Positions 2,044-46,319 of a stretch of 64,000 nucleotides of DNA are shown here, piece after piece (positions within the stretch are counted from its first letter, which is position 1; each line of letters begins with the position of its first letter). The notes below the pieces were generated by a model. That model did not search any database, had not been told where the DNA came from, and saw only the letters and a program-made list of their open reading frames with translations. Both the position numbers and the translations under genes were made by a program. Source of the DNA: Thermococcus thioreducens. Its GTDB lineage: Archaea > Methanobacteriota_B > Thermococci > Thermococcales > Thermococcaceae. The stretch covers positions 1,426,001 through 1,490,000 of the forward strand of contig NZ_CP015105.1 of NCBI RefSeq assembly GCF_002214545.1, in the 5' to 3' direction.

Positions 2044-2100
2044 TGGTAAACTTAGCTTTACCACATTTAAGGATTTTGGCAAAGTGGACTCTACCACTTT
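2044..2100. promoter_or_regulatory. Two 20-bp inverted repeats upstream of the decayed ATPase
   Basis: The gap between the winged-helix gene's stop and the ATPase start holds two perfect inverted repeats with 7-bp arms and 6-bp spacers: TGGTAAA/TTTACCA at 2044-2063 and AAAGTGG/CCACTTT at 2081-2100. On the minus strand, GTGGTAGAG and GTGGTAAAG recur as near-direct repeats, with a further GTGGTTAAA before the start codon. Arms are AT-rich with no T-tract, so an operator fits better than a terminator. Function is inferred from position. Confidence 0.45.
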
Positions 2101-41752: not shown

Positions 41753-42541
41753 ATGCTGGAATCCCTGATGGACTTTCTCTACCGCTACTTCTGGGAGCCG
41801 ATGTTCACGAGGAGCGGCTACAACCCGATTAACACATTCGTCTACGCCTTCCTGCTGGGCCTTGGAGTGATATACTCATATAAATATATAATCAAACCCC
41901 TCCGGATAAAGGTCGACGAGAGGCTCTTTCTGGCGGTTACACCAATGGTCATCTTTGGCTCGACGGTGAGGGCGCTCGTTGACGGGGGAGTTCTCCCAAA
42001 GAACCCCCTCATACTGACACCGGGCATATTCTTTACGGCCTTCATCCTGATACTCCCCGCCCTCGCGGCGGACGCAAAAATGGAGATGTACCCCAGGATA
42101 ACCATTGCGTGGGGGGCACTTCTGGCGCTCTGGGCCAACTACCTCCTGGTGACCAACGCCAAGAGCTGGGAGCCCTACGGGCTGACCCTCATCCATACCG
42201 CAGTCAGCTTTGCCGCGGTCTTCGCGTTCTACCGGTGGAGGCCCTTTGAGAGGCTCTACCTTTACCCTGTCTTGGCACACTACTTCGATATAGCCTCGAC
42301 CGTCGTTGCTATCCACTTCTACGGCTACCGCGAGGTGCACTGGCTGGAGAACATCCTGGTGAACTACCTGGGGGCGTACTCATACTACCCATGGATAACG
42401 CTGATACTCGTAGTGGTCTACTACGGGCTCAGGTACCTCGTGCCCGACGAAGAGGAGCGCTATTTCTGGTATCTCGCAATATACATCCTCGGCTTGGGCC
42501 CGGCCATAAGGGACCCGGCCCAGCTGGTGCTCCAGGTTTGA
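41753..42541 (+). CDS. DUF63 family membrane protein
   Basis: A 262-aa integral membrane protein with about seven helices. It matches the archaeal DUF63 family in its features: an N-terminal FWEPMFTRSGYNPINTFVYA, the VTPMVIFGSTVRALVDGG segment, and LAHYFDIASTVVAIHFYGY near the C-terminal third. Conserved Asp/Arg/His within helices suggest a binding or transport site, but no function is established. GGGGGTGAAAAA precedes the ATG. Confidence 0.85.
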   Translation: MLESLMDFLYRYFWEPMFTRSGYNPINTFVYAFLLGLGVIYSYKYIIKPLRIKVDERLFLAVTPMVIFGSTVRALVDGGVLPKNPLILTPGIFFTAFILILPALAADAKMEMYPRITIAWGALLALWANYLLVTNAKSWEPYGLTLIHTAVSFAAVFAFYRWRPFERLYLYPVLAHYFDIASTVVAIHFYGYREVHWLENILVNYLGAYSYYPWITLILVVVYYGLRYLVPDEEERYFWYLAIYILGLGPAIRDPAQLVLQV

Positions 42542-42600
42542 ATTTTGTTTTTCCATGAAGACAAAATTGTTGAATTTTGTCTTCACTCGAAGACAATATT
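42541..42600. promoter_or_regulatory. Array of four alternating 12-bp half-sites over the ATPase promoter
   Basis: Four copies of a 12-bp half-site alternate in orientation at exactly 16-bp steps: AATTTTGTTTTT (42541, two mismatches), GAAGACAAAATT (42557), AATTTTGTCTTC (42573) and GAAGACAATATT (42589, one mismatch). Spacers are 4 bp. The central pair is a perfect palindrome with 13-bp arms (42556-42585). The last half-site runs into the TATA region (ATATTTTTAAAG, about 42597-42606) of the downstream ATPase gene. This looks like a multi-site operator; as a terminator for the preceding gene the regular phasing would be unexplained. Confidence 0.6.
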
Positions 42601-42625
42601 TTTAAAGATTGTGCCAAAGAGAATA

Positions 42626-43810
42626 ATGGTGGACACTGTGGAGAGCAGGATTATTTCCTCGATAGTTTCAACGAGTAAGAGGTTGATGAAGTGGGCCTCA
42701 AGATTCCCAAAGAGAAGATTTCTTTACAGTGAGCTAAAAGAAATAGATAAAGAGTACTATGTTGGGGTAAAAGGGATTCGAGGTGTTGGAAAAACTGTGC
42801 TTCTTCTCCAATTGGCCTTTGAGACAGAAAAGAGCGTCTATTTCTCTGCGGATTCAACGCTTTTAAAGCCCTATTCACTTTATGAAATCGTTAAAGAGCT
42901 CCAAGGCATGGGCTTTAAGAACATCTTCATCGATGAGATACACAGAAAGGCTGGATGGGAAGAAGATTTGAAAACCCTGTATGATGAGCACGAGGTCCGG
43001 GTGTTTTTTTCTGGATCTTCTGCCATAGATATACTGCATTCTTCCGCCGATCTCTCAAGAAGGGTGGTACTCAAAGAACTCCCTCCGGCATCGTTTAGGG
43101 AGTGGCTTAACATAAAGAGGGGGGCTGATATCCAACCACTGTCTCTCGATGAAATCCTCTCGAAGGCATTCGAGACAACATACCGGTACATGGAATACGA
43201 GCCTATGTGGAAAGAGTACATGCTGAAGGGGGGAGTACTGTATCCAGATGGGGGCTTTTTTGACGCACTCGAAAACTCTCTGAGGAAGGTTATCCTCGAA
43301 GATATGGCTGCATTGAGGGAAGTTAGTGTCAAATACGAGGAAGATGCCTTCAAGTTGCTCTATCTCATTGCGAGGTCTAAACCCTTTGAGGCCAACTATT
43401 CCAGGATAGCCAAGAGCCTCGAAATATCAAAGACCCTTGCCATAAGGCTCGTCTCCGACCTGGAAAAAGCTGGGCTGATAATCAGGGTTCTTCCCTGCGA
43501 GAACATTCGAAAGGAACCCAAGCTTTATTTGACAGTACCGCTCAGGAGGTTTTTTGAGAGGAAGGGCTTTTCAGTGGAGTTGGGCTCGCTCCGTGAGGAG
43601 TTTTTCGTTAACCATGTGCGGCAGGTTGGACTCTGCTATCCCAAGAGTTCTCGGCTCACAAAGAAACCGGACTTCGTGGTGGCAGGAAAGATATTTGAAA
43701 TTGGCGGTCCTGGGAAGGGGAGAGGACAAAGGCCGGATTACGTAGTCTCCGACGGCATAGTTACCGGTGATAACCGCGTTCCCCTCTTCCTCTTTGGTTT
43801 TCTCTACTAA
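42626..43810 (+). CDS. AAA ATPase with DUF4143-type C-terminal domain
   Basis: A 394-aa archaeal ATP-binding protein: Walker A GIRGVGKTVLLLQLAF, Walker B NIFIDEIHRKAGWEEDLKTL, a sensor segment VRVFFSGSSAID, SFREWL, a winged-helix-like region (RIAKSLEISKTLAIRLVSDL) and a C-terminal PD-(D/E)xK-like remnant (KKPDFVVAGKIFEIG). Family members are abundant and mobile in Thermococcales and are of uncertain role. TATA at about 42597-42606 places transcription near 42626, so ATG 42626 is leaderless. The last 50 nt overlap the convergent helicase gene. Composition is a little more AT-rich than neighbours. Confidence 0.85.
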   Translation: MVDTVESRIISSIVSTSKRLMKWASRFPKRRFLYSELKEIDKEYYVGVKGIRGVGKTVLLLQLAFETEKSVYFSADSTLLKPYSLYEIVKELQGMGFKNIFIDEIHRKAGWEEDLKTLYDEHEVRVFFSGSSAIDILHSSADLSRRVVLKELPPASFREWLNIKRGADIQPLSLDEILSKAFETTYRYMEYEPMWKEYMLKGGVLYPDGGFFDALENSLRKVILEDMAALREVSVKYEEDAFKLLYLIARSKPFEANYSRIAKSLEISKTLAIRLVSDLEKAGLIIRVLPCENIRKEPKLYLTVPLRRFFERKGFSVELGSLREEFFVNHVRQVGLCYPKSSRLTKKPDFVVAGKIFEIGGPGKGRGQRPDYVVSDGIVTGDNRVPLFLFGFLY

Positions 43811-46298
43811 CTTTGCCCTCTTCAATCTCCATCTTCAGGATTTTTGCTTCTTTCTCAGCTCTCCCGACACGGAAGACCCTTGCAATTCTCTCGATTGCTT
43901 CAAGCTTCCTCACAATGCCATCGAGCCAAGTAAAGACGTCGCCCGGATAGACTATCAGCCCGTAGACCTTCCTGAAGTGCTCCGCTATCTGCGTCGGGTG
44001 TTTGCCGTTTCTCCTCAGCTCGATTATCATATCGCTCACGCGCTCCATCGCGTGCTCGGTGCAGTCCTCCTCAGGACACATGAAGAACTCCTGGTAGAGC
44101 ATGAAGAGCCTCTCCGCCGCGTTGGGGCTGAGCTCCGGGATGACCCTGTCGAGCTCCTCAAGGATGGAAGCGAAGCTTGGCGAGAAGACGTTTGCACTCA
44201 GCCTTCCCCTAACTGCGCCCTCAAGCTCCCTCTGGAGCGTCCCGCTCAGGTAGAGGTTCTCGAATGGGAGGAGCTTGACGGCCATCCACCGGGCGGGCTT
44301 CTTTCCGAGGTTGTCCCTTATGAACGCCGCCTCCGTGGGCAGGAGGAAGCTCATGCTCACAGCTCGCCCGTAGGGCGTGACCTCAACAACCGGCCCTCTA
44401 AGCCGGACGAAGCCGAACTCCCTAAGCTTTTCGAGAACCTTTTCCGCGCTCTGGTTGGCGCCGAGGCATCTGGACTGGACATCCTCGATGACGTCAAGGC
44501 GGTTGAAGACGCAGGAGTGGGCCAGAACGTTGTCCTGTTCAAGCTCGTCGCTCCACTCCACAATTACTGGCTCGATTGGAGCGGTGAGGAGCTTGAACGC
44601 AACCTCGTCCTCCGAGCTTTCCATCTGGGCAGAATACTTTCTCCCGGGCTCGACTATGAGGTAGACCCTGCCCTTCTCGTGGTAGAGGGGCCTTCCGGCA
44701 CGGCCGAGCATCTGGTGGAACTCCCTGACGGTGAGCCACTTGTTGCCCATGGCCAAACTCTCAAAGATTACCTGGGAGGCCGGAAAGTCCACACCTGCTC
44801 CAAGGGCGGCTGTGGTGACCACAACGTCGAGCCTCTGAGCCAAAAACTCCATCTCGGTGAGCTTTCTCTGCTTGTAGGGCAGGCCGGAGTGGTAAGGCTT
44901 GGCTCTAAGGCCTTTGCTCGTGAGGTAAGCCGCTAATTCGTGCGTCCTCTTGCGCGAGAAGGTGAAGACTATCGTCTGCCCCTTGTAGCCCTGCGGGGAT
45001 TTCCTCATCGCCTCAGCACGGCAGAGAACCGCTATGTGGCGCCACTTCTCGCTCTCGTTCCTCGCTATGATTATGTGCCTCTCCAGATCGACCGGTCTCT
45101 CGTCGTAGAGCACCAGCTTCAGCCCGAGTTCTCTGGCCAGCTCGCCAGGGTTCCCGACGGTGGCGCTCAGGCCTATGAACTGGGCATCTGGGTAGAGCCT
45201 CCTTAAGCGGGCTATTAAACCGTCCAGCCTCGGCCCGCGCTCTTCGTCGTCCAGCATATGGATTTCGTCTATCACTATGGTTCCGATGTTGCCGATCTTC
45301 CTGCCGGCGCGGAGGAGGTAGTCTATTCCCTCGTAGGTTCCGACGATTATGTCCGCGTCTATCCCAGTATCAACCACAACCAGCTCGTCCCGGGTCTTTA
45401 TGCGGCTCATGCCAACCCTTATCGCCACCCGGAGGCCGAGCTTGGAATAGCGCCGTTTGAAGTCATCGTACTTCTGGTTTGCCAGGGCAACGAGGGGGAC
45501 GAGGAAGAGCATCTTCCCGCCCTTCATGGCCTTTGGGACACCGGCCAGCTCGCCAATGAGGGTCTTACCGCTCGCAGTGGCTGAAACCACAAGGAGGCTC
45601 TCACCCTCAAGAAGGCCGCCTTTTACCGCCAAGCTCTGGACGGGGAGGAGCTCGTTAACGCCTTCAGCTTTGAGAACGGATTTGAACTTCTCGGGAAGCG
45701 GAAGCTCGTCAAGGTGGACTTTCTCAACGCGCACGTGTTTGGCCTTCAGCTCGTCCCACTTTGTTATCTCCGGGTGCCCGGTAGGGTCAAAACGCGGGTC
45801 GAAGGCGTAGAGAACTTTATCAAGGTCTCTAAACCTGTCGAGGAGCTTTCTAGCCTGGTCAAACATTGCAACGCTCCTGAACCTGAAGCGGAGCTCCCTC
45901 TTCAGCTCGTCTTCCGCACACCTCTCGCAGATGTACTCGCCCTGGTATTTAATGCGGTTCCCCTCGGTGAGGACGGTCACCCTGCCGTCGAGGAGGCAGA
46001 GGCGGCAGAGCTCGGCTTTCTCAACGCGCTTGTTCTGGAGCCTTCTCTTAAAGTAGTCTTCCCACTCGCCCGCATTTATGAGGACTATCCTTGCCCCACG
46101 GAGAAGTTTCTCAATCTCCTTTGGGTTCCTGTAGTTGCTCCCCTCAAGGACCTTGAAGAGCCTTCCCTCGCGCATTATGAAGCGGTATATAGCATCGGCT
46201 TTGAGGTTCCTCATCTGTGAGAGCTTTTCGGGCTCGTTCTCAATGAAGAAAGCCTCAAGCTCGTTTTTCTTTCTTCCGGGCCTCACGACGAAGAGCAT
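43761..46298 (-). CDS. Ski2-like DEAD/DEAH-box helicase with N-terminal zinc-finger domain
   Basis: An 845-aa protein. The N-terminal 220 residues contain a Cys4 site (CRLCLL, CERCAED) and a basic domain. The helicase core has LVVSATASGKTLIGELAGVP (Walker A), TIVIDEIHMLDDEERGPRL (DEIH), FIGLSATVGNPGELA, VTTAALGAGVDFPA and REFHQMLGRAGRPLY (motif VI), followed by a winged helix and a C-terminal helical domain with CPEEDC. Ski2/Hel308-like helicases unwind RNA or branched DNA; this archaeal subgroup's target is not fixed by the sequence. ATG 46298 follows GAGGGA at good spacing. It lies in the same direction behind the Lrp and TyrRS genes. Confidence 0.86.
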   Translation of the reverse strand: MLFVVRPGRKKNELEAFFIENEPEKLSQMRNLKADAIYRFIMREGRLFKVLEGSNYRNPKEIEKLLRGARIVLINAGEWEDYFKRRLQNKRVEKAELCRLCLLDGRVTVLTEGNRIKYQGEYICERCAEDELKRELRFRFRSVAMFDQARKLLDRFRDLDKVLYAFDPRFDPTGHPEITKWDELKAKHVRVEKVHLDELPLPEKFKSVLKAEGVNELLPVQSLAVKGGLLEGESLLVVSATASGKTLIGELAGVPKAMKGGKMLFLVPLVALANQKYDDFKRRYSKLGLRVAIRVGMSRIKTRDELVVVDTGIDADIIVGTYEGIDYLLRAGRKIGNIGTIVIDEIHMLDDEERGPRLDGLIARLRRLYPDAQFIGLSATVGNPGELARELGLKLVLYDERPVDLERHIIIARNESEKWRHIAVLCRAEAMRKSPQGYKGQTIVFTFSRKRTHELAAYLTSKGLRAKPYHSGLPYKQRKLTEMEFLAQRLDVVVTTAALGAGVDFPASQVIFESLAMGNKWLTVREFHQMLGRAGRPLYHEKGRVYLIVEPGRKYSAQMESSEDEVAFKLLTAPIEPVIVEWSDELEQDNVLAHSCVFNRLDVIEDVQSRCLGANQSAEKVLEKLREFGFVRLRGPVVEVTPYGRAVSMSFLLPTEAAFIRDNLGKKPARWMAVKLLPFENLYLSGTLQRELEGAVRGRLSANVFSPSFASILEELDRVIPELSPNAAERLFMLYQEFFMCPEEDCTEHAMERVSDMIIELRRNGKHPTQIAEHFRKVYGLIVYPGDVFTWLDGIVRKLEAIERIARVFRVGRAEKEAKILKMEIEEGKVSRENQRGRGERGYHR

Positions 46299-46319
46299 CC
46301 CCACTCCCTCGCCAAGCGA

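Follow-up and report, generated by a model that had tools for sequence, protein, structure and literature searches.

A phased array of alternating half-sites as probable autoregulatory operator of an AAA_14 ATPase gene in Thermococcus thioreducens

The gene of an AAA_14 ATPase in Thermococcus thioreducens is preceded by four 12-bp half-sites that alternate in orientation at exact 16-bp steps (positions 42541-42600 of the window, the 64,000-nucleotide stretch of DNA analysed here). The array is genuine and chance is excluded as its origin. Judging from sequence comparisons, it is probably an autoregulatory operator of the adjacent ATPase gene, bound cooperatively by phased dimers of the ATPase that repress their own gene. 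The array is also far more general than first proposed.

Array geometry and promoter

The array was noticed by reading the sequence, and the geometry given in the preliminary description holds: the four alternating half-sites are present at exact steps, the two inner ones without and the two outer ones with mismatches (Table 1), the middle pair forms a perfect palindrome with 13-bp arms (42556-42568 / 42573-42585), and the last site enters the TATA region, where it reaches the octamer TTTTTAAA. On the forward strand the order is AATTTTGTTTTT-CCAT-GAAGACAAAATT-GTTG-AATTTTGTCTTC-ACTC-GAAGACAATATT. A repeat search of the array region returned a single inverted repeat of 28 nt with 79% complementarity and, at a spacing of 32 bp, a direct repeat of 32 nt. 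Half-site 1 starts within the stop codon of the upstream DUF63 gene (TGA, 42539-42541), and the array fills the gap between this stop codon and the TATA-like box of the ATPase gene. The centre of this box lies 16 bp from the last dyad, so that the array register continues into the TATA box.

The dyads at exact 16-bp steps are complementary at 10, 12 and 11 of 14 pairs, which sums to 33 of 42. This sum is the highest among 323,566 positions (324 kb) of the same genome, sampled as the window and 13 other stretches of 20 kb each, and the next unrelated place reaches 25. When the region was shuffled 200,000 times, the sum stayed below 33 every time. When the 2.07-Mb genome was searched with the 28-bp palindrome pattern (≤ 3 mismatches), the window array was the single match, with no regulon elsewhere.

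Table 1. Features of the array, the ATPase gene and its surroundings in the window
Feature	Position	Strand	Remarks
Half-site 1	42541-42552	-	AAAAACAAAATT on the - strand; two mismatches; same column kept in orthologues
Half-site 2	42557-42568	+	GAAGACAAAATT, exact
Half-site 3	42573-42584	-	GAAGACAAAATT, exact
Half-site 4	42589-42600	+	GAAGACAATATT, one mismatch; extends over the BRE region into the first TATA-box bases
TATA-like box	42599-42606	+	TTTTTAAA; TTTATAAA in most orthologues
AAA_14 ATPase, 394 aa	42626-43810	+	Winged helix inside the chain; DUF4143-like region at the C-terminus
Winged helix, residues 235-302	43328-43531	+	AF2 model; Foldseek MarR matches; Pfam MarR E 5.5e-4 (below cut-off)
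Recognition helix, residues 269-281	43430-43468	+	Residues 270-271 = TL, covary with the half-site
Putative PD-(D/E)XK-like/DUF4143 core	43670-43750	+	D349, E358, K364 and Q368 conserved
DUF63 membrane protein	41753-42541	+	Upstream neighbour, outside the module
DEAD/DUF5814 helicase	43761-46304	-	Downstream convergent neighbour, outside the module
Palindrome pair, 20 bp each	2044-2096	-	TGGTAGAGTCCACTTTGCCA and TGGTAAAGCTAAGTTTACCA; 33-bp spacing around a TATA-like box

The window ATPase

The start codon of the ATPase (ATG at 42626) agrees with the promoter spacing of its orthologues. The AAA_14 domain (PF13173) is recognized by Pfam with 80.7 bits against a cut-off of 27. An AlphaFold2 model of moderate confidence (mean pLDDT 72) gave Foldseek matches to STAND ATPases (Apaf-1, MalT, plant NLRs) and to Orc1/Cdc6, and its winged helix matched MarR proteins. 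The C-terminus is likely a PD-(D/E)XK-like/DUF4143 core, as judged from relatives: DUF4143 (PF13635) has no Pfam match in the window protein, and it does match in the distant orthologue L115 (35.5 vs 28.1 bits) and in a second ATPase family of the same genome (family 2, 66.8 bits). The window ATPase resembles the PADLOC candidate system PDC-S01, whose models match its residues 29-289 with part of the profile (E 9e-17, on E-value alone, without the PADLOC coverage and score rules) and the family-2 paralogue with E 4e-34. The 3' ends of the ATPase gene and the convergent helicase gene overlap by ~50 bp (43761-43810).

Conservation among Thermococcaceae

Orthologues were collected from 94 Thermococcaceae genomes, in which identity to the window ATPase is ~62-82% and then drops across a gap to ≤ 34%; a phylum-level search around G000 added no close orthologues to those known. 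The preliminary description had regarded absence of the array from orthologues as evidence against an operator, and the array was found conserved 5' of every intact orthologue examined in the Thermococcaceae genomes. In 23 of 23 orthologue promoters (21 distinct sequences) the array aligns without gaps and ends at the TATA box, with the consensus CATTTCGTCCT...GAACGAAATGCATGCATATCGTCCT...GAGGACAAG-TTTATAAA. Dyad complementarity at 16-bp steps amounts to 57, 70 and 61% in these promoters, against a background of ~27%, and the TATA-box centre is again the next 16-bp step. The putative operator thus abuts the core promoter both in the window, where site 4 runs into the TATA box, and in the 23 orthologues.

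The upstream neighbours of ~20 orthologues fall into 11 groups and the downstream neighbours into 12. As the array is present despite these differing neighbours, it moves with the gene, and since it stays with the ATPase across contexts a linked second regulator is unnecessary. No neighbour is constant across the 11-12 contexts, which speaks against a toxin-antitoxin arrangement, i.e. a two-gene operon with a co-encoded partner. In one genome the window ATPase occurs twice, at positions separated by 12 kb (G017:C1:1899568 and 1911951), and the second copy has an in-frame TAG and retains the array.

Exclusive linkage to the ATPase gene

Searching the 94 genomes with the core motif RAACGAAATGCATGCATATCGTCCT (≤ 3 mismatches) yielded 24 sites in 23 genomes, compared to 0 for the reversed control. 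At 19 of these sites an orthologue follows, be it intact, broken or contig-cut. The remaining five (L149, L155, L165, L169 and L171) lie at loci where relatives have the ATPase, and their flanks read as ATPase-deletion scars with remnants of array and promoter. If all sites without an ATPase are such scars, there is no regulon. No core-motif copy was found in the 94 genomes away from ATPase promoters or deletion scars, which argues against a replication origin or ORB site. The orphan arrays at the five scars are useful to gauge the rate at which an operator degenerates once its protein is gone.

At the window locus itself, DUF63 and the helicase are mostly adjacent in relatives, and the ATPase is present only in G000 and G015. 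Recent insertion of the ATPase at this junction was considered and partly rejected on account of short C-terminal remnants of an otherwise lost ATPase gene at the DUF63-helicase junctions of G041 and G029 (L178 and L179), which imply that gene loss also happens at this locus.

Half-sites and the recognition helix

The half-site letters switch jointly at all four sites between clades, and they do so together with residues 270-271 of the recognition helix, which is near-invariant elsewhere. TL at these residues goes with GTCTT half-sites (L003 and L004; site 1 of L003 is degenerate), NM with GTYCT (most orthologues) and GA with GTTCA (L017 and L018). As exceptions, six NM promoters have GTTCA at site 2, and a small number of sites deviate more. 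With no more than two or three independent switches behind it, the covariation is supportive and falls short of proof.

Distant orthologues

The scope of Thermococcales alone, as initially suggested, proved too narrow, as the period is kept in DPANN archaea, Methanoperedens and bacteria, including plasmids. Orthologues with 33-53% identity occur in Micrarchaeota, Diapherotrites, Methanoperedens, Elusimicrobia, Thermoanaerobaculales and Aminicenantes, and homologues with ~30% identity on bacterial plasmids. The distant-orthologue promoters of DPANN archaea, Methanoperedens and bacteria have other half-site letters and retain a 32-33-bp period, which is the top of 25 lags in 12 of the 14 distant promoters (Fisher p ~5e-21, with 32 and 33 pooled and a few of the sequences related); the plasmid homologues L141 and L145 show no 32/33 period. 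The repeats of Aminicenantes and Thermoanaerobaculales allow a reading in which they overlap -35/-10-like boxes, which would fit the expectation for a repressor site. Because the ATPase is the sole thing that these genomes have in common, it is the shared period that points most strongly to the ATPase as the binder.

Other ATPase families of the same genome

The promoters of ATPase genes in the T. thioreducens genome are generally rich in dyads (mean z 2.08 vs 0.27 for 168 background gene starts, p 2e-6; at least two top-scoring background starts look like ATPase starts). Three further AAA_14/DUF4143 families, to which the window ATPase shows 25-31% BLASTP identity over parts only, each have private conserved palindromes at the TATA box. 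In 14 promoters of family 2 (L052/L090, 439 aa; the count leaves out L104, whose extracted start is doubtful), the palindrome TGTGAAAGT..ACTTTCACA is repeated at exact 32-bp steps (-107.5, -75.5, -43.5 and -11.5 from the ATG), with the TATA box in register between the last two and the outermost palindrome missing in some members. In families 3 and 4 (L048 and L051) the palindromes flank the TATA box ~34-35 bp apart and have family-specific letters. Covariation with the family-3 recognition motifs GKG/GKP/GKT looks consistent and was set aside because half-sites are mixed within the palindromes.

The window holds a second example, the palindrome pair at 2044-2096 (Table 1), which lies 5' of a broken AAA_14/DUF4143-type ATPase with an interrupted frame (736-1641 and 1650-1886, - strand). 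This pair was recognized by reading the sequence, and the automatic dyad score of that promoter is not significant (z 0.86).

Two further observations concern ATPase genes elsewhere. Three genes of different families lie within ~7 kb (L047, L052 and L059; G000:C1:828973-835745), two of them with clear promoter palindromes, and this group is possibly an ATPase/defence cluster. The PF01637-like ATPases L055, L056, L057, L060, L061, L065 and L066 have short palindromes over the start codon with a period of ~16-19 bp (e.g. CTAATCGTGATTAGTACTAATCATGATTAG), perhaps a second operator style.

Proposed mechanism and alternatives

The preliminary description had proposed an operator for a cooperative dimeric regulator, possibly the ATPase itself, and the conservation, the presence in at least 11 contexts, the exclusivity and the covariation with the recognition helix argue for this proposal. 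In the mechanism that we favor, the winged-helix domain of the ATPase would bind the half-sites, one dimer per palindrome; that the ATPase dimerizes is suggested solely by the symmetry of the DNA. With palindrome centres 32 bp apart, or three helical turns, the dimers would sit on one face of the DNA, where cooperative binding is possible. Half-site 4 lies over the BRE region and directly adjoins the TATA box, so that full occupancy of the array should shut out TBP/TFB and keep expression of the ATPase gene low. Release would follow when the ATPase is lost or titrated, or when its nucleotide or ligand state changes. The upstream sites could also activate instead of repress.

A broader picture is doubtful and is offered as a speculation about the widespread PDC-S01-like AAA_14/DUF4143 ATPases in general. 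Here the private array would serve as both operator and resting platform, from which an infection signal would free the dimers, leading to derepression and to an active ATPase-nuclease, and joint changes of half-site and helix would create a family-specific address code.

Among the alternatives, an array used mainly as assembly platform or self-recognition site of the ATPase (Orc1/ORB-, ParB/parS- or transposon-ATPase-like) rather than for transcription control is unlikely, though it carries the most weight. An array of 4 to 8 half-sites exceeds the needs of a repressor, and the protein resembles STAND and Orc1/Cdc6 ATPases and may have a nuclease-like domain, yet the array invariably occupies its own gene's promoter, where it shares the register of the TATA box, without second copies elsewhere. 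Next, and likewise improbable, is binding by a different regulator of the host, encoded at an unlinked locus and devoted to these ATPase genes. Many archaeal genes are under unlinked MarR/TrmB-type regulators, and that the ATPase is the binder is something we infer ourselves. However, such a regulator would have one site per genome apart from the ATPase loci, would have to be conserved from Thermococcaceae to DPANN archaea and bacteria, and would leave the half-site letters following the recognition helix of the ATPase, with each ATPase family having its own operator.

We give very little credence to the idea that the array marks the end of a mobile element or its attachment site. The ATPase gene is patchy and occurs in many locations, but the array lies on its 5' side only, in register with the promoter, and is left behind when the ATPase is lost. 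No matching copy was seen 3' of the ATPase gene in the window. Viral carriage was rejected, as no relatives of the window ATPase were found in IMG/VR viral contigs.

Least probable of all is that the array serves the upstream gene as terminator, attenuator or structured RNA, as would suit a palindromic array beginning at the DUF63 stop codon: this reading was ruled out, since the array is 5' of the TATA box, is missing after DUF63 in relatives without the ATPase, accompanies the ATPase in other contexts and gave only sub-threshold chance matches in Rfam. Copies 3' of unrelated genes, as expected for a terminator-like repeat, were looked for as well; ATPase-less copies do exist, solely at the five deletion scars.

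Should the ATPase indeed regulate its own gene through this array, a cognate, protein-specific DNA site would give such ATPases a testable molecular activity, namely sequence-specific binding. The families would offer naturally matched proteins and DNA sites from which winged-helix specificity could be decoded, and the array promoter is a potential reporter of the signal that these ATPases sense.

Comparison with known systems

A literature search, conducted mostly outside subscription journals, returned no operator or self-repression for AAA_14/DUF4143 ATPases, and of the 5.4 million papers covered a single one names DUF4143. The statement in the preliminary description that no operator like this has been published agrees with this search. 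PDC-S01, a single-gene candidate defence system of the AAA_14/DUF4143-like type, has been reported to rank fourth in frequency among prokaryotic defence systems, and most PDCs are said to await experimental validation (PMC12988326). Its models match the window ATPase and the family-2 paralogue, with the window protein covering only part of the profile, and no operator is described for it in the literature searched.

Two other ATPase systems are comparable in part. Archaeal Orc1/Cdc6 proteins, AAA+ ATPases with a winged helix that bind repeated ORB sites, share with the window ATPase the domain combination, the repeated inverted sites and a fold match (2qby), whereas the window array is located at the promoter of its own gene, with one site per genome, and the protein belongs to another family. 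MalT, another fold match (8bob), likewise has a STAND-like ATPase and a DNA-binding domain on a single chain; it activates a regulon, whereas the window site is private to its own gene.

Close parallels are the AbiEi antitoxin (PMC7319586) and Stf76 (PMC4027180), which are described as self-repressing winged-helix regulators with several inverted repeats in their own promoters. The window ATPase similarly has a winged helix and inverted repeats in its own promoter, and negative feedback is likely. It differs from both in that the DNA-binding domain is part of a STAND-like ATPase that is encoded as a single gene and has a DUF4143-like C-terminus, in that there is no antitoxin partner, and in that the 16/32-bp phasing is kept across archaea and bacteria. 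Winged-helix self-repression via inverted repeats is thus known; unusual here are the deeply conserved phasing and the clear experimental handle.
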